Of a stretch of DNA of 64,000 nt, positions 3,292 through 64,000 are shown in pieces. How positions within the stretch are numbered: the stretch's first letter is position 1; every line of letters starts with the position of its first letter. The position numbers and the translations under genes are program-made. Location: positions 1 through 64,000 of the forward strand of contig CATKHK010000124.1 in the NCBI GenBank assembly GCA_949751835.1, read 5' to 3'. The stretch is from Blepharisma japonicum (Eukaryota > Ciliophora > Heterotrichea > Heterotrichida > Blepharismidae). The notes beneath the pieces were generated by a model that searched no databases, was not told the origin of the DNA, and saw nothing but the letters and a program-made list of their open reading frames with translations.

Positions 3292-3936
3292 ATTAATTTT
3301 TATTAGTTCTTTCTTAAAGTGGTGTTACTTATCACTTTGGTTTTATTTTTTTAGGATCTTGTATATAAAATTCACAGGTTGAGATTTTATAATGAGTTTA
3401 GACTAGGGCTTCTTTTTAGATAAATTAAATAAGTCATTGCCGATTTTGGATGTTTCGATAGACTCTTGATAATGATTTGCATTTATTAGTGCTAGGCTCT
3501 TCTAAAAGGAAGCTGAAGGAGTAGAAGTTATATAATATATCTTTTGGCAGTAGTTGAGGTTCAATAAATATAACGAAAATAAAATCAGATGTCTTGCTTT
3601 CTGGGTATTTATATTGTAAATTTAAATAAGAAATTCTATTAGAAAGTTTATTTTACCATTTTATTCACCCTTTTTAAGTAAAATTAATAATTTTGCCTAT
3701 TTATTATGATAAGTACCATTTGGTAAGTTTTTAAAGATAATTACCAACAAAGAAATCAAAATTATATCAATAATGGTTAACAAATAATATTTTAAATAAT
3801 TTGCTTGAGTTAATAATCTACTTTAATTTGCCAAAAAAATAGTTGATTATTTCCAAGTTAAAAATTGAAACGGATTTTAATTTTTTGAAAATTATTGATG
3901 ATTAATAAAGAAAAATCTTTGATATAATTTATTATT
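3292..3936. other. divergent intergenic region
   Basis: This 645-nt AT-rich stretch separates the divergent starts of cofactor A and the large surface protein, so it presumably holds both promoters. I see no discrete motif I can name and no gene. Confidence 0.5.
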
Positions 3937-6900
3937 ATGAAGGTTTTTTTATACTTTAGTGTTTTAGCTTGTGTAGTATATTCCCTTTCTCTTGGATCTA
4001 AGGATGGGACACTGGATCCAGGCAGAATTGTATGGCCGAAAGAAACCTGGGTAAGCTCTCCGATTGAGCTTAGTAGAACCAATTCTGGATTGACAGTTTC
4101 CATTACGTTTAATTTTAGACCTTCAACGTCCCTTTCAAATGGATACATTCAAATTATCCTTCCAAGTGGGTTATCTGGAAGTCTTTCAACTATTATGCCG
4201 GTTACCGCAGACCAGGACACTGCAGCCATTTTCTCTATTGCTTTACCTTCAAGTGCTGGTGTTTACGGCCCATTTGGTATCATTACTCGAACTTCATCTA
4301 CAGGCCAAATTATTGATGCAAATTATATTTTTGGGTGTATTGCTACTACATCTCCAGCTCAAAACTTACCATCACTTACAGTATCTACTTATCTAGGACT
4401 AGCAAGTCCTGTTATTTCTACTACAGACAGTCTTTATTTTACATTTTTTCTTACTTCAAGTTTATGAAGACACGATTTAATTGAAATAATTCCAGCAACA
4501 GACTGAACAGTTTCCCGTTCAGTACGATGCTCTTCTATAGACATTTCTGGGGTAACCAATATGCTATATGGATATAACGATGATCATACATTACCCTGTG
4601 GAACTGCAACTTCAAGCAGTGATACAACTGGCCCTGAGTTTTCAAGAGGGACTTCTAATAGTGTTTATATATATGGAATTGATAGAGATGTAATAATATC
4701 AAGCTCAATTCGTGTAAGTATAAAAGTTTCAACCTTCACATTGCCTGGATATGTAAAATCATCATGATCTAATACCTGAATTGTCAAAATCTGGAGGTTT
4801 GGGACAAATAATCTCCTAGCTCAATACTCTGGAACTGGCCCAGTAACTACAGCAGTAGGTGCTATAACTTTTAACTCATGAACTCCAATAAGTGATATTG
4901 ACACTAATTTAATGCCTTCTGGAATAACTCTCTTTACAAAAGTAACTTTCACGAATTCTCATACAATTCCAAAAGATGGCTCTGCTGCTATTTATTTTTC
5001 AAATGTTGATATTTCAGGAAACTGGTGAATTGATTTGGATGGGAGTTATGCTTCAGGCTCACAATGCTATATTTCATCTCAGAATCAAGGAGCAGCTTGC
5101 AAGATTACTAGTAGTGACACAGTTACTTTAACTTTTTCTAAAGGGTTGCCAGCTAATAGCATAATTTCTATTTGCTTATTGACAGCATTATCTTCAAATG
5201 CCAAAATTTCAGCAATTACTACATATTATGCAGGAACTATCAATATTGACAGTATCTCAAACCCTTATTCTTGGCCTTTTAATGCTGCTGTTAAAACTTT
5301 TGGCTACTTCCAATATCATGCATATAAGGATAAATCAAACTCATACCCAGCTATTGGAAGCGCCTCTCCTACTTGGTTTGGGGAATGGGTCTGGGGAGCT
5401 GACATAACTGAAGACTTATATTGGGCATTTTTACCTAATACTATGGTTACATGGACAGCAAATACCATAATAACTGTTCACCTTCCTATATCACAAGTGC
5501 TTTCTTTTACAGAGACATATATTTCTTTAAGCTCAATTGTGTATGATATAGTAAATCCACTTACATCAGCCCAGCTTCTTGCTAATCCTACAACTGGACG
5601 AAGTTATTCAATTAATGGAAATGTTATTACAGCTAAGTTCTCAGCAGCTCCAACCCCTGCTAATTACTTTGTTTTTTCATATACAGGAAATACTGCATTA
5701 CCTTTTGTCACCTCGAATTTAGCAACATTTTATGAGTGCTGGGCAAAGTCACAAACAGGCGCAATATATGAGTTAGGTAATTCTGTGTTTACTGTAAGAA
5801 TTGGGGAATATTTTGGAGATGATAGCATTTATACGAAGCCACTATGCCTTAGCACCGTTGGAGCTGTACCACTTATCACTCATTTTACAGCATTACATAT
5901 GGATCTTGATTTTGCTTCAACTGCTACTCTTTTTGCTATTGAGGTATCTGTTACTAATGGCGCAGATCTAGGTACTGGTCTAGAAGATGGAAGCCGCATT
6001 CCATGCAGTGCAACTTTGCCTAAAGTTATTTGTACTTTGTCTACTACCAATAGTGGAGCAGACAGCCTTGTTACTATCAGAGGATTATCATCATTAGCAG
6101 TAAATGATGAAGTGTATATATATACTGGCAAAGGAATCCAAGCCTCAGGGATTGCATTATCTCTTGCAACTTCTGTGTATTATACAACAGCAAAAGACCT
6201 AAATATCCGTAATTACCTTTACACCAGACTTTCTGATGACTCAAATAATTATATCACTTATACTACAGCAGGCGAAGTAACTTTAACAAGTGGTAGCTCA
6301 ACTGCTGCTTGGGATGTTTCATCTACTCTTTCTTTGCCAGTATCTAGTGCAAGTATTGGAAGTAGCACAAGTTCTGGGACTTATATTGGAATTGGTTTAC
6401 CTGTAGGCTTTAAGCTGGATAATTCTGATATATCAATTAATAGCCACTTTCCTATGCATAGCTATCAAGCAGCTAATAGTGACGATTACTCAATTGGAGG
6501 ATTTATTATGGGTATTGATGATGGAACTTTTAGATTAGCAGGTGGCGGATCTAATATATTGGTTAATAATATTATCGCGCCAGGATATGCTGGACCTACA
6601 AATGGAGCCAATAATATTCACTTTAACGTATTTATTGCAACCAGTTTGGGCAGTACTTGTGATGCATCTGATGTATCATCATTAGCAAATAAAATCAACG
6701 TTGCAACTATAAGCAACTCAGATGTTTCTTGCACCTCTTCAGCTTCTCCGCTACGATGACCAGATTCAGTTGACTCAGATATGATTATTACAATAAATCT
6801 GCATTTTAATATTCCATCAGGTGGCATAATAAGTCTTGCGATGGACAACAATTGGGTTTATGGCGAAGCAACTTGTTCAGTTTCTGGACAGATTGTATCA

Positions 6901-9900
6901 TGCTCTCCTGGATTAACTACAACAATTACACTGGCTAAAGATTTTGCAGCAGGGTCAATGAAAATAACATTTCTTCATGTCCTTCCTCCTATTTCAGGTA
7001 CTGCTAGCTGCGTAAGCACAATTACAGTCAGAGATTCAAATAGCAATTATATTGCTGCAGGATCAGGCCTCTCACAAGCAATTTCTTTATCAAGTGCAGG
7101 CTTTCAAGGAACTTCAAAAATTGTCTCATCTGCAATTCCAAACTTTGCTGGAGCAGTTGGAGTCGATATATACCTTTCTTTTTCACTCAATAAGTCTGTC
7201 CCATCAGGCGGAATTCTTTACATTTCTCCTGGCAGTATTGGATCTTGGTTAAAATCAGGAGACATTAAAGATTATTGTTGGTCAAATATAGTATATACAT
7301 CTTGTACTATCTTGGGCTCAGATATACAATTCTCATTAAAAGATACACTGCCAGCTGGCACTGATGTTCAACTTTATTTGGATTCAGCCATTACTCTACC
7401 ATCAGATGAAGGGGTTACTTCGTCTGGCTTCAAAATTATTTCAAAATGGAATGATGTTACTATTACTTCAGATAATTCTCCAGGATATGTACTAACAGTG
7501 AATCCTCCTTGTGATGGAACCATATCTCTTAATAGTGTAACGCAGAGCGATGTTGAGAATGCTGGAGAGGAAGCTATCTATCTATTTTCTTTCTTAAGTG
7601 ACCAAGCAGTTGTAAACGGGGATCATTTTATTATTCAATTCCCAAGAAATTTTGATCCATATATAGGAAATGCAGACAACACTTATCCTGACTGTGAACC
7701 TTATGATTGATATTTAGCCTGCAGCTCAGCAGCTCTTGGAAATGTCGTTTGTAAGGTTGACCATTGGTATCTTAAAATCTCTGGAATCACTAAATCTGCA
7801 GACAAACTATCAAGCTTGGATTTAACTATTAATGGTGTCTGAAACCCAGCAGCAGTTGCTACAGGCTATTTTAATTTGTGGCATTATGGATCAAATGGGT
7901 CTGTCAAAGCTTTCATTAATTCAGATATAAGTACCCTTACCTCAGATTTGGCCAAGAATTTATTGATATTTAAAGCCCTTATGATAGATAATAGCCAAAT
8001 TGGGAGTCCTTCTACTTATTCTTTTGACTTTTACTGTGAAGGAACTTTAACATCAGATTATGCATTCATAATCAAATTTCCAGCTCAGTTTAATCTTAAG
8101 TTAACCAATGGAGGATCCACGCATTGCAATACTAAATATTATGATGATTCAGGAGCTACCAAAACTGACCCAACAGTCAGCTATGATTGGAATGATGCTA
8201 CAACCTGCAGTGTAGACACAGCAGCTGGCACTGTTACTCTTTCTATTCCTGACACTGTTTCTAAGAAATTTGCAGCAACCAATAGAATAAGAATCAATTT
8301 AATTGATATCGTCAATGCTCAATGGGGGTTAACTAGAATAGATAATATGTGGGATAATAGAGACACTGATGCATTTGGATCTTTTTCATACTGGACTAAT
8401 AAATTTACTGTGAATTTGGTTAATAATCCTGACAAAACAATAATTGCAAAAGGATACCCAATTCTTAATGGAGCTTATGCAGGGTTTAGCACATCTACGT
8501 CAAATGTTGATATAAATTGATATAATCCATTGACAGGAACTGGAAAGGTTCATGTGGCTCCAGGAACTCAAAGTAAAGATATAACAATAACTGTTTCTCC
8601 ATCATGGCCTATGAAATCTAAAACATTAAAACTAGTGCCGATCTCGAACTCGGACTATGCAGATAATGGGAATCTTGAATTCACATCGGCCCACTATAAT
8701 TTTATTGTTTATCAAATGACAAAAACCATCACATTCAGAGTTTCTGCAAAAATTGGAACTGCAACAGGGATTTATTATGTTGACTGGGAAACTTCTGAAA
8801 GCAGGCAGCCTGGAGTACCAAGCGATTTATACAGTGTTCCATTGAGTCTTCTAATAGAAGTTTGTACACCTTCTGCTTTAGCACAAATATCAGTTGCTTC
8901 TATACCGACACTTTATAGAGGACATAAAAGCATCCCAATTGCAATTACCCTTTCTCAGTCGCCAGCTACTGAGCTGATTATTTCTCTTACAGTCTCATCA
9001 GTAGACATATCAGTGTATCCAAATACTTTGACCTTTGGGAAAGACACTGATATGCTCTATTTTGAGATTTCCGTTTCAGCTGGATACGAGTTGACTCAAG
9101 CGTCTCCAGTACTATCATTTATCATTTCAGGAATTGATAAAGCTGCTTTTGGGACACTTGCATCAGTGACTCTCCAAATGTCATCGACAGATTCTAGTTC
9201 AAAACAGCCAATAATTACAATTTCTGCAAATCAGATCACTGAAAATTCAGCAACATTGACAATTTCTTCCCCACAGACAGGAGTTCTTTACTGAGGCTTT
9301 TCTTGCCAAGGGGCAATAGTTCCTTCATTCAATGACTTATATGCAATTACTGCAGATCTTGTTTCAGAAAAATCTGGAATTTATACATATCAGAAATCAA
9401 AAGATATAGACTATGCTTCTACTGAAACAGATATAGATCGAGAGAATGGAGACACAGATATTAATTCTTTTTTTAGAAGAATGCACTCTAAGCATTGTAC
9501 TCACTACTATACAAATTCTCAAGTTATATATTCTGGAGTTTCAACACAAGTTGTATTGGATAATCTGATGGTAAATACCAGCTATGTGTTTACTGCATAT
9601 GTTGATGATAGACTTAATTCAGATACATCAAAATTTGTAGCCCAAACAAAAAATTTCACTACCCAGCAGTTCCCGAGTGTATGAACTCAGTCAGTCAGTT
9701 TTTCATGAATTATCCCACAAAGGAACAGTGAGCGTGTCCGATATATCCTTGCGAAAAACATGGGAGTTAATCCTTCATGGCTTACACCAGTAGGATACTC
9801 CACAACTCCAGGAAGAATCCTTGATGAGACATCAGGGACGACAACTTTTACTTATAATGTGATTTATGATAGATCGACTCCATATTCTCCATCTGCAATT

Positions 9901-10422
9901 GTCAATAATCTGGATGAAACTCAAGCAACTAAAGATTTTTTTGATCTTTATAGTTATGCTGTTAATGGTTATAGGCCAGGAATTGTTTATGCTGGGATTG
10001 CTCCATCATGGGTAGTTTCACCTGTATTAGAATCCGTTAACGAAACTACTGCAATTTTTAATGCAAGCTCATCTGTCAATGGAATTATTTGTGCTTTGTG
10101 TACGGATGAACCTACTGATCAGAACACTTATGCATGGCAAGTTATTGATGGAATAAATGCAAACTTGATTGCTGGATATGGAATATGTGGGAATAGCACT
10201 GCAGGAACTAACCTGACTTTGGAAATTTCAGGCTTGACTAAAAGATGATACTACCAATGCTATTTCACTGCTTGTAATGATTATCCAATATGACCATCTT
10301 GTATTGAGTTTTCAGAAAAATCACCTTTGATTTCGATACCAATTTGGACAGTCAATTCAGAGGATGATGGTAGTATTATTCTTCAGAGCTTATTTTGTGT
10401 ATTTATTTCCATATTTAGTTAG
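3937..10422 (+). CDS. giant secreted/GPI-anchored surface protein with repeated beta modules
   Basis: One continuous frame of 2161 residues without introns once TGA is read as Trp (15 in-frame TGA). Residues 1-20 form a signal peptide (MKVFLYFSVLACVVYSLSLG). The C-terminus has a small-residue stretch (NSEDDGS) followed by a hydrophobic tail of 15 residues with no basic residue after it, the classic shape of a GPI-attachment signal. The body is Ser/Thr/Gly-rich with spaced cysteines and repeated beta-strand modules marked by IPSGGIISL, VPSGGILYI, IPKDGSAAIYF, VNGDHFIIQFP and SDYAFIIKFPAQF. No enzymatic motif is seen. It is likely an extracellular cell-surface or cortex protein. It ends in TAG. 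The membrane anchoring is inferred; the single long frame is observed. An ordinary single-pass anchor is unlikely because no cytoplasmic tail exists. Confidence 0.85.
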
Positions 10423-24249: not shown

Positions 24250-24942
24250 TTATCTGATAATCAATTAATTAAAATAGTTATTAAGGTAATTTCATTATTT
24301 CTTGATTGTATTGGCTTAAGGAGATTAATATCGATCTAAAACTAAGTTTAATTTATTTTTTATAAGATAGCATCAAATATGCTAATAGTTCAGTTGAGAA
24401 AATTATTTTGCTTCTATTTTAAGTAATAGTTTAGATTATTTTTTCTAAATCAGAACTCAGTATTGCAGAGCCTATGCTTGACTTACATATTTCAATTCTG
24501 GTGTCTGGGGAATTCTAGCCAGTATACCAGCTCCAGAACTTATAAGGAGACTTGTGGTTCTACTATTTAAAAAATTCAGAACATGGAAATATTATATAGA
24601 AGCCATTTATTATTAAGCTGAATAAGGGCTACTTCGTATTTATAACCAAATAGCCTTAATATTATAAACATATTTAATGCCTTTATATTAAATTTTATTT
24701 CTAAGGGACCAATTTAAATCTTAAATTGCTTAGGAGGTTTATTGATGAGCTAACTTTTTGAAGCACATCTTAATATTTATTTTTCACCAGGAAATTAAAA
24801 TTGCTGTTTTCTAGAGGTTTAATTTAAAATGCATAACTTGAATAGACGGAAATAAAACCATTAAATCATTCCAATTGCTATAAGTATTCAGATTTATTGA
24901 TGTAATTCAAATATTAGCCTATTATATTATTTTTTATTGAAA
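24250..24942. other. AT-rich intergenic region
   Basis: Mostly AT-rich and stop-dense. The exception is a richer island at about 24449-24616, listed separately. Confidence 0.5.
24449..24616 (+). pseudogene. possible short gene fragment
   Basis: Between a TAA at 24446-24448 and a TAA at 24614-24616 lies a 55-codon frame with one TGA. It reads like protein (QYCRAYAWLTYFNSG, GILASIPAPELIRRLVVLL) and is less AT-rich than its flanks. It has no ATG and no 15-nt intron that would connect it to anything upstream. It could be a leftover exon of a decayed membrane protein gene or a chance frame. The segment also contains nested inverted repeats (TTCTGG with CCAGAA, CTGG with CCAG at about 24497-24540). 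Confidence 0.25.
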
Positions 24943-26979
24943 ATGCTATTATGGGGTTTATTGGAAGTCCTATGGCATGATATTGCGCTTGTATCAGACT
25001 TCAAACTTAAAAACTGGATCTTCACCAAAAGCCTCTCTTTAGATTTCACAAATCCTGCAATGGAAAAGCTTTTTCAAGAAGAACTCAGAAATCAGGTAAT
25101 TTCCTCAGACAAAAACCTTACTCTTTGAGCATTGTTTTCTATTATATTTTGCGCACTCTTATTTTTTTTCTCAGGAGTAATAAGTGCTGCTTCATTTTTA
25201 TCACTCTTGCCCTTATTTATGTGGAACAGCTCAAATATTCATCTAAGGCGCTTTATCGCAGAATTTTTCTCTGTTCAGTTTCAAATTGCCTTCAAAGAGT
25301 CCTGCTCTATAGCTGAGATAATGGGAGGCTTTATCCCTTGCTATATGCTGACTGCTATGTGCTTTAAAAAATGAAAGTACTCTTTATTATATGGTATTTT
25401 AGAAGGAACAATAGTTATTTACTTTACAAACACTAAGACTTATTATGTAATTTTTGCGATTATAGCTTGAACAGGAATGTTTATTATAGCTGAAATGGAT
25501 TTTAGATGTTTGTGAAATATGCATTCAAGCAGCAAACATCAATTCACAGAGTTAAATCATGTATTTAATACTGCTCATAGCGCATTATTTATTGTAGATA
25601 GAGATGGAAATATTATGTCTCATAATAAGCGTGCATTGCTTCTTTCTCATACGATGGGCAAAACTGAAGATACACTAGTGAATACTAAGTTTTATGATGC
25701 TTTCGACGATGACCATCGACCGTGGGCAAAGGGAATCGTACAAAGCATCTTTAAAGGAGAGAAAAGAACAGAAGAGTATTTAATAACCAACCAAATCTCA
25801 GATTTCAAGCCAGAAAATATAGAAAATTTAGGCTTTATTGTAAAAGCTGACCTTGTTGGCTGAAATAATGAAGCCACCATGAGAATTTCTTTTATTGACA
25901 TTTCTGCTGCTGTTGCAAATAGAATCTTCATTTCTAATAACTATAAGCACATTCAACTTTCTCTTGACAAGTTTTTCAATGAAACATTGGAAAATTATGA
26001 ATCTGGACATTTCGTTTGGGAAAATCTGATTGTAAAAATCAACAAGCTACAAAATGAGCTCAGAAGTAGTTTGCTTTATCAGTCACTTCTTCTAAGTCGG
26101 ATTGATATTAAAAATGAAATTTTAAATATTTTTGTAGAGCTGCACAATGTAATTGAGATGCTATTTAATTTAGCTGAAAAGAAACACATGACAGTATCAT
26201 TAAAAGGATCAGCAGATCTTCCAGAGAGTTTATACGGTGACAAAACGTTTCACAATTATGTCTTGAATTCGCTTTTGATGTTTTTAATTGATAAATGTGA
26301 GTCTGGTTCTGAACTAAATATTTCATCTCAAATTAGTAATATGAAAGATTATGAATTTTTAATTCAATATAACTTTGATTTTGCCTCTAATACGATAACT
26401 CAAGAAATGCTTGATGAAATATTCCAAGTTAAAATGCAAGGATCAAAGCGAAAGTTCTTTAATGATTTCGTAAAAATATATAAAAAATATGGGTGTGGAC
26501 TTTTTATGTTTGATTCAATGATTTGCTCAATGAGAGGCTACACAGATTGTAGGATGAACTCGGTCACAAAAGAAGGCAGAATAAGTCTATTTCTTCCATT
26601 TACTGTTACAGAAAAAGAAGCTGTCTGCAATATTCTTGATTTAACTCAAAAATCTATTTGCCACTTCAAGTTTTTCTATGAATGATTTCCAGCCAGCAAC
26701 AATAAATGCAAGTACAATAAATTTGAGTCAGAGAGCGATGGTTCCTCTTCAGAGTCAAGTGAACAAATCCCAGATAAGGATTCGAGCACTGAGGAGATTC
26801 TTAAAAGTAGCAAACGTGTAAAAAAAATGAGACAATCTAAAACATTTTCCAGTCATATAGAGCAGCTTCCAGAAATTGAAAGTTTAGCCACGATCCGGCA
26901 GGGAGGGAAAAAATCGTCAGTTTTTAGCAATCCTGGAACTGATATCAACTTTTTTGGATATATGAATAGCACATCTTAA
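24943..26979 (+). CDS. membrane PAS protein with degenerate histidine-kinase-like region
   Basis: A 678-residue protein; TGA is used as Trp at several positions. About four hydrophobic segments lie between residues 64 and 187 (FSIIFCALLFFFSGVISAA, YYVIFAIIAWTGMFIIAEM). A PAS-like domain follows at about 196-310 (HSALFIVDRDGNIMSHNKRA, a typical PAS opening). Residues about 330-580 resemble a histidine-kinase core: helices like a dimerisation domain, an N-box-like stretch (GDKTFHNYVLNSLLMFLIDK) and a later KKYGCGLFMFDSMI block. The usual phospho-accepting H-box and clear G-boxes are not visible, so it may be catalytically dead. The C-terminal tail is Ser/Glu-rich. I chose ATG 24943. Role as a membrane sensor is inferred; the kinase relationship is moderate. 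Confidence 0.65.
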
Positions 26980-27098: not shown

Positions 27099-30000
27099 TT
27101 ATTCCATACTCATATTCACTACATCGAAAATAGTTTCCTTTTTAACAATTTCTCGGCTCAATCGTCTTTCCTCTGATTTGATAGGCGTTAGCTTTCGCTG
27201 AAAAACTTGTGAACCAAGCTGGGTCATCGACCTCCTCATTCTTCTCTTCTTTTTATCACTCATAGTCATCCTTCTACTTTTATGATTTTTATTGAATTGA
27301 GGAACATTAATGGTGGTATAAATATCCAAAACATTGCCTAAATCATTATTATACAATTTAGCTGACTCAAATTCATCCATACTTTCTTGGTTGAGAATAT
27401 TCAAAGGCAAGCCACTATTTTTCACAGCCCTTTTTAGAATTTGCTCATAAATATCTGGGTATTTTTCTGCAAATCTCATTAAATCATTTCTATGGAGTGA
27501 ATAAGTGTAGCACATGCTTTTAGCGATTACAGAAAAACTGGGTTTATCTTCTGTCAATAACTCAATATCACCAATAAATGATCCTTTTCTAATTGTTTTA
27601 AACATTGATTTGTTATCTGACGAAATTAGTACAACTGAGCCTTCGATAACAAAGAACATTTCCTCACAGTCTTCATCTTTGTAAATAATATAGTCTTTGG
27701 GAAGAAACAGCTTTGGTTTGAGATATATAGCGATTTTTTCAAAAATTTTATGGGAGTCTAATAACTGGAAGCAGGGAACTTTTTCAAGCATCAGCTTTGT
27801 GCACTCAAAAATGATGGATTTAGACAAATTCTGTGGAATATGGAGAAAGAGTTGATTATAATCGATAGGGCCATAGACTAATCTGAGAGAGGTCGAAAAT
27901 GAGTGATATTCCTCAAGGTCCTTGATTAATTTTTTCATTTTTTCGGATCCTTGGCTCATACAAAATGGTGAATTAAGTTTTTCTATATAATAGATCAGTT
28001 CAGATTTTGAAGTTGCTGCCGCAGTTGCCATAAGTCCGAAAACTATTGCATTCATTATATCTCCTAAGAAAATTCAAAACATTGTTCACACCCTCTCAGA
28101 GTCATTCGCCTCATGCATAAAGCCATATCCTGTACAAGTAATAATATTAAGTATGTAAAATAATCCTCAGCTGTACTCATTGCCAACTCCTGTATCTTCC
28201 AAATTATTCAAATTTATTCAGGAATAGTGAACTTCATGAAGACTATAATATCACATTAAGCAGCTCATCCAATGTATAGAAATTAAAACACTGATAGAAG
28301 CCTCTAGCACATTTAATTCTGTCAAAATATCCTTCATCTGTCTACCCAATCTATCAAATAAAGAAAATAGCCTAAAAACTGCTATTATTCTAACTGACCT
28401 AAGGAATGCTATAAAATAATAAGGATTCTCAGCACCTAAGGAAGCAAGAATTGCATCAAACGGTAAAAGTGCAATTATATCAAGATAAAAACATCAGTAA
28501 GAGTCTTTATTTGCTCCCTCATCATTTTCATGGTTTCATTTATTCGAAAATATAAATGAGTATTTTAGGTTAACTAAAAAGAACGCAAAGGACACAATTA
28601 AACACAAAATCTCAATACCCAGGAGTAAACCATTATAAGGTATTTCAAATCCAATTTCTAAAGGCAACTCTATTGACGTATAAATGAGAAATATTATATG
28701 AATAATAGCAATATTTCTTCAGACATTATTAGATTTTTTCGACAAAATGTTTTGAATTTTTGATTCCATGAGCTTTTCAGTCCTATTGTAGTATTTTATC
28801 GAAGCATTCGGGCCATTTTGAAATTTTTGGTAAACTCTTTCAAATTCAGCAACTGCATACTCCACACTTTCAGCTGCAAAAATCTCTGCTAACCTGACTT
28901 GGGCCATATCAAGCATCTCTTGATGTCATTCAGGGAATGCATCTCTCAGTAACTCAATATGTTCAGCTTTCAGTAATCCAATTTGGCACACACTAGTTGC
29001 TATAGCATTAAAAGGTCTTGCTCTTATTGATTCAATAAAAACTGAAATTTCTCCAAAATGTTTTCCTTTTGTAAGGGTCATTATAATCCTTTTTCCACAA
29101 AAATTAACTATATCAACTTCTCCGTCCAATATGATATATAAGTCATGACTTTTCTCTCCCGCATGTATGATAGGATCTCCAACCAAGTAAGTCTCTATTT
29201 CAAGCAGCCTGAAAATTGATTTTGCAAGCTCTGCATCAACTACTCCATTTTTTTTAAAAATCTGGGACTGTTCAATAGCATTAGAATATCTGCACATTTT
29301 TATTTCTACCATCAAGCCAGATGGCAGTTCCTTTAATATTTCCTTATCATTTATCCCTTTGTTGCATTTATTTAAATAATTAAAATATTCGTCAATTTCT
29401 CCAGAAAAATTATCATCAAGAAATTTTTTAGCAATAAAATCCTTTACAAAGTTATAGCTCTTGAGGAATTTAAATTGAATATTAGAAGCCATTTCTGTGA
29501 CTAGTGACGTGATGCTTCCAAATAATATAGAAAAAGCAAATAGTCCTATAAGGAAAATAAAGCAGTTATAAGCTTTTTCAGATGGAGAGTTGCTTACAAC
29601 TCATCCATATCCTGCATGTGAAACTACTATTGAAGACCAATGAAATGCGTGGATATAAACAGTCTGATGTGTTAAAGGTCCAGATGAGCTGGTTCTGAAT
29701 TCGTGTGGTTGAGGAGACGGAACTCTTGAAAGCCAAGAATGCATAGTATCTTCTCGCTTTGCGCACTCAATAAAGAAAGCACCACTAAAGTGGTTAACCA
29801 TTATGTATATTACAATGACTTCTAATACTCTTAATAATGTAAAAATATGTGGAAATTGTTTTTTCATGACATCAAAAAATTCTGCTATATAATAGCAGCC
29901 AGTAATTCTAATAACCGAAAAAATAGCCACAAGCTCTCTTGGATCTCACAAATCTGCAAGACAGAAAATTAATGCAAATGGTATGGCCATTAAAAAATTG

Positions 30001-33000
30001 TGGACGCATTTATATAAAGGCCTTCGAGGTTTTGAGCCTTTAAGTTTTAATTTTATAATTGAGGAAGGAGCAAAGCTAAGAATCTGATACAAGTTTCAAT
30101 AATAAAAGCTATAAGCCAAGTACAAAATAATTGACATAACTTCAAAAAGCAAAAAAGCTGGATTAAAGTCATATTCGAATGCTATTTGAAGAGGGACAAA
30201 TATAAAATTGTAAAAGTTGAGGATAAAATAAAGATAATGCCTTAGCATAGAATTGTGGAATTTGACAAGAATTGGACTAATTCTGAAATAGCTCACAGCA
30301 ACTTCGTTTGCCGGAGAGTTTTCATCTTTAGTTTCCACTCTGTCAGAAGGTTCATCCTTGCTGAAATAGTCATCCGAACCTTCAGTCATCAACGTTCTAG
30401 CAGTCAGAATAGGCAGTCCTTGGATTTCGATTCCTGCGTTTTGCATTGTTGTTATGTTCATCATTTGTCTTTCAACTGCAATTTTACGAATTTTTCTCGA
30501 AAATTCAGGATAAGTGCTCATGATGAAATTGAAGTCGTTAATAGAAAGGATGGCAATCGTCACATCGGTTTTGGCTCTCACTGTTGCAACTCTCACTGAG
30601 GGAAAGTCATGAAGCAGCGCCATTTCACCAAATACAGAGCCACTTTTAATAGAATTCAAAACAATTCCTGCTGAAGATACTACTTCCACTTCTCCATCAA
30701 GTATGAAATACATCTCAAGTCCTAATTCACCTTCTGATACAATTGTTTCTCCTTTACAAACCATTGAGAGCCTATATTTTCTCACTATAGACAATATGGC
30801 CCCTTTTTCCTCCTCTGGGAAAAACCCAGACTTAGTGATGTCTGAAAATAAAAAGAATTTGATATCAGTTCTAAGGGTTTCGGGGAAATCTTGCATGATT
30901 TCTTCGTCATCATAGCCCTGCAGCTTATTTCAAAGCAGTTCATAGTAGTTTAAGATGCGGCTTTGCAAATCTTGAGAAAGATTGCAGTGAAGCATCCATT
31001 CCTTTATTACACTCAGTTTTTTTAAATATTCTGTTTGATTTTTGTGGTAGCTTGAAGCCAAACTTGCAGCTTCTCCAATAATAAATGCAGCCAATATCAT
31101 AGAAGAGATATTAAAAGAAATGTTGAGAACTTTTTCAGCCACAGTAGGGACAGGGACATCACCATAGGCTCCAGATGTGCTAATTGAGTACCCGAAGTAT
31201 AATAAATTGACATATTGATCATATATTGGGATATCTAAAATGCCTGTTCCAGGAGGGTAATAGTGGTTAAGAGGAAATGAGTTAATGAAATTTTGATGAT
31301 TAAAACGTGCATCAGGATCTATTCAATACTGAAGCTTACCTAAATAAAAGGAAATGCAAGCTATAAAATGGCTGAAATAAATAGTGAATACGAAAAGAGT
31401 CAAAAGACGAGCATATGATAATGTTGAGTGAGAATTATAAAAAAAGTATTTATAAAGTCTGTAAATTCTCTTGCATTTGAAAAGTCTTAGAATTCTAAAA
31501 AAGGCAGGAACATATTGATAGCTTCCAGCTGCTTCACATATAAAATCAATGGGTAGAACAGAAATAACATCTCATAGTAAATAGCGGTTTAAATAATTTT
31601 TTTGAAGAACTGATGGGTCTCATGTATATGTCCCAAGTTGTGTGAAAATTGCAGTTTTGAGATGTATAGGCATATCCATTATGTAAATTATATATGAAAC
31701 TATATCGAAGCCTAGCCAAACTCCATACACAGGAAATTCAAAAGCAATTGCAAACGGAATATAAAATAAATAAAAGCCAAAAGCAAGAGTTAACAAAAAA
31801 GATCAAAGATAAAAAAATCCTGAGAACGGATCTATAATAAACTCTTGATTTCTTTTATCATGCTTGTCATTATATATAAACATTCGTAGCCATCCAATTT
31901 CTGCATTCTCAAATTTTTGTGGGCTGTCTTTTAATTTCATATTATCATTTTCATTGCCATCATCATTTTCATCTGCAGGGGATTCTTCCTCTTTTGGAAT
32001 TTCTGAAGCAAAGTCAAAATCTTCCATTTTGGTTGTGGCCATTCTTTGCTTGCCAACTTTGATTAAAAAGTCATGGTAGTCAGGATAATCTTTTAGGATT
32101 CTGACCAAGTCTTCTTTAAGGATTGAAGAGATCATTGCTGCTGTTTGGGCACGAACAGAAACTGTTCTTCTCATATTAAGTAAAGCTCCTATTTCTCCAA
32201 AATAATCTCCTTCATGCAAAAGAGCTATAATTATTTCTGCATCAGCGGCTATAACCTCAACAATTCCTACTTTGACAAAGAACATTTCTTCTCCGTAGTC
32301 TCCTTGTCTTATGATGAAGTCTCCCTTCATAAAGATATTAGGCTTTAAGTGCTTGACTATTTCAAGAACAAAACTTGGCTCAGCCATTTCAAATAGAGAA
32401 ACCTTGGGTATCATATCTTCATGAAGAACAGTAGATATCTCACCTCTCAGAGAATTTGGCAGCTCCTTCAAAAATTCAACATCAATGATATAGGAAAATT
32501 GATTCCTTATAGAAGAGTAGTACGTAATAATTCGCTTGCTTAACTTTGGTGTTAAGTGTCTTAATCTACATCATTTCTTTACCCTATCTATCTTTTCCTG
32601 AGTTTCATATTCTTTAAACTTTAATGTAATTAATGCTGAAACAATACTTCCAGAGATCCACGCACAAATGGAAGCCCCAATAACCATGATAAACGATGAT
32701 GCATACTTTTCAGCAAGAGTGGATGGCGTTGTATCATTATAGCCAATTGTTGATAAAGTTGCTGTAGCTCAGAATATAGAGTCTGTGTAGATCTCATATT
32801 TCCTAGCTCCTCCATCAATTCAAGGCTGCAATCAAGTGCCAGTGTCCCCGTTATCAATTTCTATTCTTGCTATGAATGCTAGGAGCATCCCAGAGCAGTG
32901 AATTGTTCCAAGAAGAAGAATCAAGTTCTTAAAAATTTTCATCTTTAATCCTTCAGGAGCCTTTGAAATGATTTCTTGGTTTGAAAATCAAGTAAAAAAC

Positions 33001-33533
33001 TGAAAGAATCTTAGCAGTTTAAGCGCTCTTAGAGATGCAACAATATATCCTTCTAAATCAATACCAATCGCTAATGATAAAAAGGAATAAGGAACTGATG
33101 ACATCAAGAGACATGCCAAGTGAGCATAATCGGATTTCTCATGCAGCATCCAGAGGCGCTTTCAAATTTCGAATCTTTTTAAAATAATCCTGGAGATGCA
33201 GTCAATGATGAAAATTATCTCAAAAGTAATTTCCAATGCTAGTCATAATCCCCAAGGAAATCCTTGAATTCCTAAAAATAAAAGGACTGTAAAAAGATTG
33301 TAAAGGTTTATAGTGAAAACTAAAAGTGCTCATTTACTCTGGAAATCGCTTTGACTTGTTGATGCTAACTTTATAAAGGTTTGCCTTCCTTTGGTTTTCT
33401 TTTCAGATGGATTTTTGACTGTTACCTTCTTTTTTGTTCCACGTCCGAATATTTTTTCGCTAAGCCTTTCAAGCCCTGGGCTATAGAAATCACTCGCTCC
33501 AGAAGATCGCCTTATCCTGATAGGACTAATCAT
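27099..33533 (-). CDS. four-repeat cyclic-nucleotide-gated-type cation channel in a single chain
   Basis: One intron-free frame of 2144 residues, with about 25 in-frame TGA read as Trp. It contains four successive units, each with six membrane segments, a pore loop and a C-terminal cyclic-nucleotide-binding domain (CNBD). Pore cores: unit I TIGYND (Gly264-Asp267), unit II SGAYGD (Ala789-Asp792), unit III HAGYGW (Gly1308-Trp1311), unit IV CTGYGF (Gly1802-Phe1805). CNBDs lie near residues 390-495, 920-1015, 1442-1535 and 1943-2037. CNBD I (FGEIGALLNMRRT), II (FGEMALLHDFPSVR) and III (FGEISVFIESIRAR) keep the FGE and an Arg. CNBD IV reads FIGDIELLTEDKPSFS and lacks both. S4 is Arg-rich in II and IV and weak in III. 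The plan matches the animal CNGK channel, in which one chain forms a whole pseudotetramer. K+ selectivity is inferred from GYG. Confidence 0.92.
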
Positions 33534-60848: not shown

Positions 60849-63542
60849 CTAAAAATCTGCATCCCAATTAGGACTAACTTGAGCTTTGCGTCTTTTGGGT
60901 CCTTTTGGAATTTCTGTGCTTGCTTCTTCTGCTGAAATGAATTCATCCATAGGGACGTTAGCTAAAAATCGATCCATCCCCATTTCGTCTGAAGGAGGAA
61001 CATATGGAGGAACTAGTTGCTTGCTTAATAGTTTTTCTCAATTCATAGGACTTAGCCATGGGTTCCCTTTTAATTTTTCTATGCTTCCTCCATTTCTTAA
61101 TGATGGATTTCTACTTAAAAGCTGCTCTATAAGAGGCCTTGCAGATAAATTTTGATCAACCCAAGACGGCCATTCAATTACATGTGCTTGAACCTTTTCA
61201 TATACTTTAACAGGATCTTCCTCATTTTCTGCAAACGGGACGCCTCCACATAAAAACTCGTAAAGCATGATTCCTAAGCTCCAGTAGTCAGCTGCAATAC
61301 CATAGCCTTTCCCAGTGACTATTTCTGGTGCCATATAATGAGGAGTTCCTACAATCGTATAAGTTCTTCCTTGGACAATTTTGGCAGTTCCAAAGTCAAT
61401 TAACTTTGGATAGCCATCTTCGTCAATCATGACATTTTCAGGCTTCAAATCTCGATAAATAATATCTCTTTCATGCAGATGTTCTAGTATGGTTACAAGG
61501 CATGCAAAATAAAATCTTGAGTCTCTTTCGTTTACTATTCCCATCTGCCGAAGCACATCAAATAATTCTTGTCCTTTTACATATTCTGTTAAAAAATAAA
61601 TTCTTTTTGCGTCTTTGAATGTTTTGATGAGCTTTAAGATCATAATATGATCAAGCTGCATCAATACTTTTCGCTCAAGTACTAAATTTTCTTGGATATT
61701 GAATCTGTCAATTTTTTTACGCGAAACAGTTTTAAGTGCATAATTTGTTTGCTTATCCCGATGCATTACTAAAAATACAATCCCAAACATGCCTTTTCCA
61801 AGTGTCCTGATCATTGATAAGTCATCAAGCTGAACTTTGTTATCTTGAAGCTGAATTCTTTTTAACAAAAGGTTTCTAATTTTGTCATCTATAGCACTCA
61901 GAAAGTCCTGCTGGTGAAGCACCCAACATGAAACGTTCCCTTTAGCCGTAATAGTAGCGGTTCTTGCTTCGTTGAAGAGAATTGACCTTTCTCCAAAATA
62001 GTCATGCTTTGTGATTGTCCTGATATAAAAATTATTTTTCATTACATCCACTTTTCCATGTTTCACAATGAAAAAGGAGTCTCCTGGATCATTTTCTCTG
62101 AAAATCACTTGATGGTCTTCAAAGTCCTCAATTTTCAGCTCATTTAGAAGAGAAAATATATCTTCGTTAGGTAGTTCTCTGAAAATGTTGACTTTCTTAA
62201 GCACATATAAAGCATCATTTTTTACGATGACTTCATGGAATGGGCCTCCAATTGCTGATTCAAAATCAGCGCGTGTTGCAATTCCAATCACAACTTCCCC
62301 GACTGCAAATATTTCATCATATTTGGCTTCTTCAGGCTCTTTTACTATTTCTGCGTCTCCAAAGCAAACTAGATCACGATATATAGTTTCTCCTGCTTGG
62401 TTTCGTAGTGATCCTTTTAATAAAATCCACAAGAATTTTCCTTTTTCATTTTCATCGCTATTTATAGTTTGCCCATTCAAAAAAGTGAAAATCTTGATAT
62501 GCTTAATAATATTTTCTATCTGCTCCTTCGTTAAGCGAGCAAAATGAGGACTTTTCTCCAGTGCAATTCTCTGTGAATTCACATAAATTATTTGCTGAAG
62601 CTTACTTCCAAGGACCTTTGTTAAATTTTCTCTGCCTATTGCTAAGCATTTCACTGGTGAACTAGCAGTTATGCTTGCAGTTCTTAAACAGTTATTTAAT
62701 AAAGACTGCTCGCCAAAGTAATCGCCCTTTCCCATCGTTCTTATTTCTACTCCATCTTTGCTGCAAGTCACTGTTCCTTCTTTAATTATATAACACAAAT
62801 CCCCAGGGTCGCCTTCATTGACGATTTTCTGCTGAGGACTGAAATTGTGTATTGACAAAGAACTGACTAAGGAGTCTTTCTGCTGAGGTGTCAAAATTTT
62901 GAAAATTGGGATACTCTCTATAAATTGCAAATTTTCTTGATAATTCAAAGAATTTATACCTTCTACTGCAGACCTAAAGGTTCTTCTATCAACTCCTCAT
63001 AGTGTACTTCTTTCCATAGTTTTGATAGTTGCACTCCTTGGTGTATCATGGAGAAGAGCTAGCTCTCCAAAGCTGTCACCTTGCCTGAGTACATTTACTC
63101 TTTTATTGTTTATTAATACTTCTAATTTTCCTGTACACACAACAAAAAAATTGTTTCCTGGTTGGGCTTGTTCAAAAATTATTGCATTTGGGCCCAATGT
63201 GTAATGTTTCATTTGGTCTATAACGATTTCACGCTGCTCATCTGTTAAACTATTGAAAATGAAGTGACGACCTAAGGAAGCTCTGATATTTTCACAATCC
63301 CTTAAGTTCTTTGGCTTATCAGCAATTTGAGCTGATGGGGCATCAGCATTGTATTCTACTTCTGATCGTATATCTCCGATTTGTCCTTTCTTTTTCACTT
63401 TTTTTCGTTCGCCAACCTTTAGATAAGAATTATCAGCTTGCTTTTTTTCTTCTTCAGGGAGGTTGATTGCGGTACTTAAAATTTGTCGCTTGGAAATTGA
63501 AGTATTGCCTAGAGTTCTATTAATTGTCATGCAGACGCCCAT
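60849..63542 (-). CDS. PKG: cGMP-dependent protein kinase, alveolate four-CNB type
   Basis: An 897-residue protein; two TGA encode Trp, one in STL-W-GVDRRTFR, a conserved CNB position, one after LSPMN near the C-terminus. MGVC at the start fits myristoylation and palmitoylation. Four cyclic-nucleotide-binding domains precede the kinase: A (FGELALLHDTPRSATI), B (FGEQSLLNNCLRTASI), C (degenerate, FGDAEIVKEPEEAKY, no Arg) and D (FGERSILFNEARTATI). The AGC kinase has glycine loop GKGMFG (582-587), ALK near 602-604, YRDLKPEN (Asp698), DFG and GTPHYMAPEI. Its gatekeeper is Thr (YFLTEYV). Apicomplexan PKG has the same A-B-C(degenerate)-D order and acylated N-terminus. The C-terminal extension reads WEKLLSKQLVPPYVPPSDE as in AGC tails. 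It ends in TAG. Confidence 0.94.
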
Positions 63543-64000
63543 TTTACTATATTTCCAGTTATATGATTTATTTTTTAAGTCTATTTTTTAGAAGACAGAA
63601 CAATAATGGCAAGCTAAAGGTCCAACTATAATTTTAAAAAAGAAGATTAAAGTCATGATATATATATAATTATGACCATTAATTATAATGAGTAAGGTTT
63701 ACTTATATTTGTAACATTTTCCAAAATTGAAAATATTTGAAAACAAAATTGAGTTTGTAGATTTTTTTGAAATTATAAGGATATAAGAAAAATCTTAATA
63801 TAATGTTTTTTGGTCCAAACTATCCTAAACAATTTCTCGCAAGAATTAAATTCTAAAAACCCATCAATATTAGTACAATTGTGCCTATAAGAATATATAA
63901 ATTTTCTTTTATATAAATGAGTTTGTATTGCTTTTAAAATGAGCATTCGTTTATATGTGACTTTACTAAAACACTCAGATTCACAAATAGAATACAAGAA
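63543..64000. other. AT-rich intergenic region at right edge
   Basis: Upstream flank of the kinase gene. Frames are stop-rich or implausibly AT-biased. I see no gene, RNA or repeat here. Confidence 0.55.

Follow-up and report, generated by a model that had tools for sequence, protein, structure and literature searches.

The closest described systems to the channel considered here are the CNGK channels. Each of these is a single chain of four 6TM-CNBD repeats whose pores read GYG or GFG, and they are known from fish, from marine invertebrates and, among choanoflagellates, from Salpingoeca rosetta (PMC4749565). The hosts named in the cited sections of two papers include sea urchin, fish, sea anemone, tunicate, sponge and choanoflagellate (PMC4749565, PMC7576140), and a broad 2020 survey places CNGK in metazoans and choanoflagellates (PMC7576140). 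In that survey, CNGK repeats pair 1 with 3 and 2 with 4, Danio repeat 1 being the sole exception; two-repeat CNBD tandems, perhaps independent, are described from dinoflagellates and oomycetes, and ciliates are stated to have yielded no tandem channels (PMC7576140). According to a review, the CNGK domains show no obvious specialization (PMC6259924). Among CNBD channels, CNGK is the only four-repeat chain named in the cited parts of these papers, and our search of the open-licence literature turned up no ciliate with a four-repeat CNBD chain. Four-domain Cav and Nav channels share the 24-TM one-chain plan with the chain reported below but, to our knowledge, have not been described with CNBDs, of which the Blepharisma chain has four.

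The chain is encoded on the minus strand of the window, by which we mean the whole 64,000-nucleotide stretch of DNA that was analysed, and its features are given in Table 1. The frame contains 25 in-frame TGA codons and no TAA or TAG, and under the standard code four frames of at least 200 aa are visible in its register. Pfam recognizes four Ion_trans stretches (109.2 bits, E 2.4e-31) and four cNMP_binding stretches (211.2 bits, E 1.5e-63) on the 2144-aa chain, and in each unit the ion-transport domain is followed by the cNMP-binding domain, a trait of the CNBD-channel superfamily. The profile search proposed in the initial annotation thus gives four of each domain, and its reading of one 2144-residue chain with four 6TM-CNBD units holds, given the open frame, the domain counts and two paralogues described below. 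A hydropathy scan placed maxima at the expected S1-S6 sites of each unit and missed S4 of units I and II; it is a rough check only, because segments were partly split and one maximum (aa 417-442) falls inside a CNBD.

Table 1 Features of the four-unit channel gene in the window.
Feature	Coordinates	Strand	Basis or remarks
Four-unit channel coding frame	27099..33533	-	2144 aa + TAA, TGA=Trp, two full-length paralogues
Channel start codon	33531..33533	-	
Channel stop codon	27099..27101	-	TAA
Unit I (aa 55-510)	32004..33371	-	S1-S6, C-linker, CNBD
Unit II (aa 561-1020)	30474..31853	-	Pfam, solved neighbours, tree
Unit III (aa 1086-1560)	28854..30278	-	Pfam, solved neighbours, tree; low-confidence model
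Unit IV (aa 1590-2035)	27429..28766	-	Pfam, solved neighbours, tree; low-confidence model
Filter position, unit I	32736..32750	-	TIGYN; paralogues TIAYN, RISYN
Filter position, unit II	31161..31175	-	SGAYG; paralogues SGAYG, LGVYG
Filter position, unit III	29604..29618	-	HAGYG; paralogues HAGYG, HVGYG
Filter position, unit IV	28122..28136	-	CTGYG; paralogues CTGYG, LTGYS
CNBD, unit I	32085..32333	-	FGE and phosphate-contact Arg present
CNBD, unit II	30510..30758	-	FGE and Arg present
CNBD, unit III	about 28944..29195	-	FGE present, Arg in 2/3 chains; ends estimated from alignment
CNBD, unit IV	about 27459..27716	-	FGE replaced by IGD/VGD, Arg missing in 3/3 chains; ends estimated from alignment
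C-terminal RRLSRE	27150..27167	-	RR[LF]SRE in 3/3 chains

A protein search of the same genome (45.19 Mb, 224 contigs) with the window chain, in which 22 of 212 first-look candidates were scored, yielded two more full-length four-unit chains, on contigs C11 and C48, with frames of 2130 and 2178 aa that contain only TGA as internal stop codon. End-to-end identity to the window chain is 57-58% for C11 and 49% for C48. With the C48 chain as query exactly three full-length chains were again recovered (22 of 180 candidates scored), and a fourth was not found with unit III or unit IV as query (88 of 133 and 91 of 137 candidates scored). Adjoining the C11 paralogue, at C11:8500-11784 (+), we observe a 1095-aa frame with an Ion_trans domain near its end, after repeats that look WD-like by eye.

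The paralogues also bear on the genetic code. Of the 25 TGA codons of the window chain, 17 align with a Trp codon in C11 and 14 in C48, with one gap each, compared with 8/9 and 6/9 for TGG, which bears out the reading of UGA as Trp. Within units, codon differences to the paralogues amount to 0.56-0.62 at the third position and 0.17-0.28 at the second; a chance frame or an assembly artefact is ruled out by this codon pattern and by the two end-to-end paralogues. Repeats of CCCTAACA occur near one end of contig C11, beside a stretch read as N. For Blepharisma stoltei, UGA as Trp, CCCTAACA telomeres and introns of mostly 15 and 16 bp are described (PMC9942806). The TGA reading and the repeats thus support a ciliate origin and point to Blepharisma or a close relative as the source. 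Rfam (gathering score) and tRNA scans of the window returned 0 and 0 matches.

The most marked feature of the chain lies in its pore. When TVGYGD of the bacterial chain 5v4s, presumably LliK, serves to anchor the filter columns, the window, C11 and C48 chains read TIGYND, TIAYND and RISYNS in unit I, SGAYGD, SGAYGD and LGVYGD in unit II, HAGYGW, HAGYGW and HVGYGY in unit III, and CTGYGF, CTGYGF and LTGYSF in unit IV. An apparent extra residue in the unit II filter was ruled out, the larger alignment being ungapped there. The canonical filter [TS][VI]G[YF]GD is thus seen in 0/12 units, whereas alignment finds it in 20 of the 21 single-unit channels of the same genome examined in detail; G-[YF]-G, always as G-Y-G, is kept in 5/12 units compared with 21/21 single-unit channels. 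The filter tyrosine position is Y in all 12 units. These single-unit channels share 6TM, C-linker and CNBD with the four-unit chain but have one unit per chain. They form a partial sample, 21 in detail and 33 in a larger tree, from a genome search that listed 77 matches, 65 of them outside the three chains and some CNBD only.

The S4 segments are just as unequal, with 3, 3 and 3 charges in unit I (window, C11 and C48 chains), 7, 6 and 5 in unit II, 1, 1 and 1 in unit III, and 3, 3 and 3 in unit IV, compared with 4-8 in the single-unit channels. In the CNBDs, the phosphate-contact Arg, whose position was taken from RTASVR of HCN1, is found in 3/3 chains in units I and II, in 2/3 in unit III and in 0/3 in unit IV, compared with 21/21 single-unit channels. 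A conserved Arg crucial for nucleotide binding is mentioned in the cited part of one CNGK paper (PMC4749565). FGE is kept in units I, II and III of all three chains and replaced in unit IV of all three; as it is also altered in 10 of the 21 single-unit channels, the loss of Arg is the main argument against a working CNBD IV. Although the C-terminal end of the chain is poorly conserved overall, all three chains have RR[LF]SRE there, which resembles a PKA/PKG site. By these residues, as read from the alignment, the units have diverged in filter, S4 charge and nucleotide contacts, in a pattern largely common to the three chains.

Compared with CNGK, the Blepharisma chain has the same plan of four 6TM-CNBD repeats in a single chain, but GYG or GFG, carried by CNGK pores, is found in only five of its twelve units across the three paralogues. 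Sea urchin CNGK also has unequal CNBDs, of which only the third is said to work (PMC4749565), unlike the Blepharisma chains, in which CNBD IV is the degenerate one. The likeness to CNGK put forward in the initial annotation consequently survives for the plan and not for CNGK identity, seven of the twelve units departing from GYG/GFG; because of this pore signature we do not class the chain as CNGK, and kinship with CNGK is compared here by description only. The same annotation expected a chain of this kind to place one-chain CNG channels outside animals. The ciliate case stands, but it is not the first, choanoflagellate CNGK having been published (PMC4749565, PMC7576140), and the novelty is a four-unit CNBD chain beyond animals and choanoflagellates.

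Among the best 60 solved sequences for the whole chain and for each of units II-IV, the nearest are CNG, HCN, KCNH and bacterial CNBD channels, unit I being compared only as part of the whole chain; no CNGK-named chain occurs among these 60 in any of the searches. CNGA/CNGB, HCN, KCNH and the bacterial SthK and 5v4s channels, the nearest solved relatives by sequence, are assembled from subunits that are separate chains. Fold models of units III and IV, for which the alignment consisted of the four window units only, gave poor AlphaFold mean pLDDT values of 52.1 and 45.7. In Foldseek, SthK, CNG and HCN chains rank high for the unit III model, with TM-scores of 0.22-0.36 in the best 50, and with this pLDDT and these TM-scores the model is too poor to count as evidence. 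One single-unit channel matches, over about 490 residues, PDB 7w5z_C, a 1471-residue 'Cyclic nucleotide-binding domain protein' that we take to belong to Tetrahymena respiratory complex IV. Two wider collections, neither meant for ciliates, were also searched: viral contigs gave 0 confirmed relatives from 221 pattern matches, and genome contigs gave one weak bacterial locus at 27% identity from 79.

Phylogenetic trees were built with 36 rows (12 units, 21 single-unit channels and three references, HCN1, CNGA2 and bacterial 5v4s), with 48 rows (including 33 single-unit rows) and, after removal of the long rows L064 and L065, with 46 rows; region L056 on C11 is without a CNBD-channel frame and contributes no row. 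Each unit class is a 100/100 clade in the 36-row and 48-row trees, and the inner order C48,(window,C11) recurs in all four classes, with ultrafast support of 86-96 in the former and 94-99 in the latter. The four-unit chain therefore predates its two duplications. The class stems are long (1.5-1.9 changes per column in the 36-row tree), and because of these long branches the joining of the units to one another is unsure.

We judge it about an even chance that ciliates evolved the chain independently, either through internal duplication or by joining different single-unit channels, and that it works like CNGK without being CNGK. Two-repeat CNBD tandems elsewhere in SAR, perhaps themselves independent, offer a parallel (PMC7576140); they are likewise CNBD tandem channels, whose first repeats fall in a different clade from the second (PMC7576140), but have two repeats, whereas Pfam finds four in the Blepharisma chain. 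Consistent with such an origin, the 48-row tree does not group the 12 units into one clade, although forcing them together costs 3.6 lnL and is not rejected (p-AU 0.228). Outside its own class, unit IV matches single-unit channels at 80.8 bits compared with 73.7 for unit I, and unit III matches them at 80.8 bits compared with 75.3 for other units. The 36-row tree, on the contrary, groups the 12 units, weakly (26/37), with the single-unit rows apart in 99% of 200 bootstrap trees, but this separation drops to 16% in the tree with 33 single-unit rows. In profile comparisons among units, I and II are closest (score 194) and II and IV farthest (136). For units I, II and IV, a profile built from 16 single-unit channels scores higher than any of the other units does, perhaps only because that profile is deeper.

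Unlikely, in comparison, is a true orthologue of animal and choanoflagellate CNGK, K+-selective and inherited from early eukaryotes (or transferred), then widely lost, with filters that drifted. The shared four-repeat plan, the tyrosine kept in every filter and the five G-Y-G segments agree with it; of the two CNGK pairings, that of units I and III is moreover seen in the 48-row tree (88/79) and the 46-row tree (53/79). In the latter, none of the other five pairings is rejected (p-AU 0.161-0.423). Against it, not one unit has the canonical filter, and the 36-row tree weakly joins I with II (34/0) and III with IV (55/78). When the 12 units were analysed alone, with two alignments and two models (four runs), I+IV / II+III came first (p-AU 0.588-0.622), whereas the CNGK-like I+III / II+IV was the last of three in every run (bp-RELL 0.037-0.056) and outside the 95% RELL set in three of the four, without being rejected (p-AU 0.097-0.137). 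CNGK repeats are also described as unspecialized (PMC6259924), and the Blepharisma units differ from one another.

The replacement of canonical filter residues in all 12 units, together with the single S4 charge of unit III in all three chains, could also suggest that the pore is non-conducting or strongly altered, the chain then being a voltage or nucleotide sensor or a regulatory protein and no channel. This is improbable, given that SGAYGD, HAGYGW and CTGYGF are each identical in two of the three chains and that the codon pattern indicates clear constraint on the units.

The linkers bear on whether the frame yields one protein. The order I-II-III-IV is kept at the three loci with linkers of 45-75 aa, and across the three chains the three linkers between units total 498 codons, none of them TAA or TAG; at the rate of these codons in the other frames of the linkers (0.0314), this corresponds to a probability of about 1e-7, a figure that assumes independent codons and paralogues, which is not fully true. 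Linker identity to C11 and C48 is 18% and 13% for I-II, 23% and 22% for II-III, and higher, 36% and 40%, for III-IV. Several separate proteins, made from internal starts and ends in the linkers with the open frame reflecting compact gene packing, might leave linkers I-II and II-III as they are, with near-equal divergence at every codon position, but the uninterrupted codons, the linker lengths and unit order kept at three loci, and the better conserved linker III-IV make them very improbable. A scan for short introns (GTA...[TAC]AG, 15 or 16 nt) gave 6, 5 and 4 candidates in the three coding frames. In linker II-III, one five-residue difference is missing in C11 and present in the window and C48 chains, which could reflect a 15-nt intron left unspliced.

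As read from the sequence, four 6TM-CNBD units stand in one frame and in fixed order in three paralogous chains, and this gene of a Blepharisma-like heterotrich ciliate probably encodes a one-chain pseudotetrameric cyclic-nucleotide-gated cation channel whose pore is asymmetric and non-canonical. In such a channel, the chain would fold round a single central pore with each unit at one fixed place, and cAMP or cGMP at CNBD I and II, perhaps also III, would open or tune the pore via the C-linkers, CNBD IV being presumably structural. Since only unit II retains a charge-rich S4, voltage sensing may be weak or uneven among the units. With four filter segments that differ from one another, the pore would probably lack a classical K+ filter, and RR[LF]SRE at the C-terminus suggests cross-talk with cyclic-nucleotide-dependent kinases.

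We tentatively hypothesize, at somewhat below even confidence, that heterotrich ciliates invented a one-chain pseudotetrameric cyclic-nucleotide-gated channel apart from animals and then evolved a four-way asymmetric pore, with a division of labour in which units I and II sense the nucleotide, II senses voltage, and the remaining G-Y-G segments come from III and IV. Nav and Cav channels became possible once four channel units had been joined in one chain, and a second, strongly asymmetric case in a distant eukaryote branch allows one to ask whether joining precedes unit specialization. The three paralogues provide a natural set for testing unequal filters and nucleotide sites within one pore.

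A likely role of the channel would be to convert cyclic-nucleotide changes into a membrane potential that steers ciliary behaviour, as in the heterotrich light response. According to a review, the related heterotrich Stentor uses cGMP in its light response (PMC4588039), and a title on photosensory transduction in the reference list of one paper names Blepharisma beside Stentor (PMC8582858). The fit of the channel to this light physiology is loose.

Parts of cyclic-nucleotide signalling are present in the genome, namely Guanylate_cyc matches and a kinase with three CNBDs. The latter is a 912-aa frame in the window (60852-63587, -) with a protein kinase domain and three cNMP_binding stretches, of the cyclic-nucleotide-dependent kinase type. 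The Guanylate_cyc matches number 87, many of them paired about 1.5 kb apart on one strand, which indicates a large cyclase family, and the genome contains at least 150 CNBD matches (150 of 394 candidates scored). Two other frames of the window have no Pfam match at E 0.001: a 2164-aa open frame with 15 TGA as Trp (3928-10422, +), and a 704-aa frame (24865-26979, +) which lies tail to tail with the channel gene, with 119 bases between the stops. Clusters of strong Ion_trans matches, putatively of the four-domain voltage-gated type, occur on contigs C95, C16, C71, C26, C51, C159 and C6.
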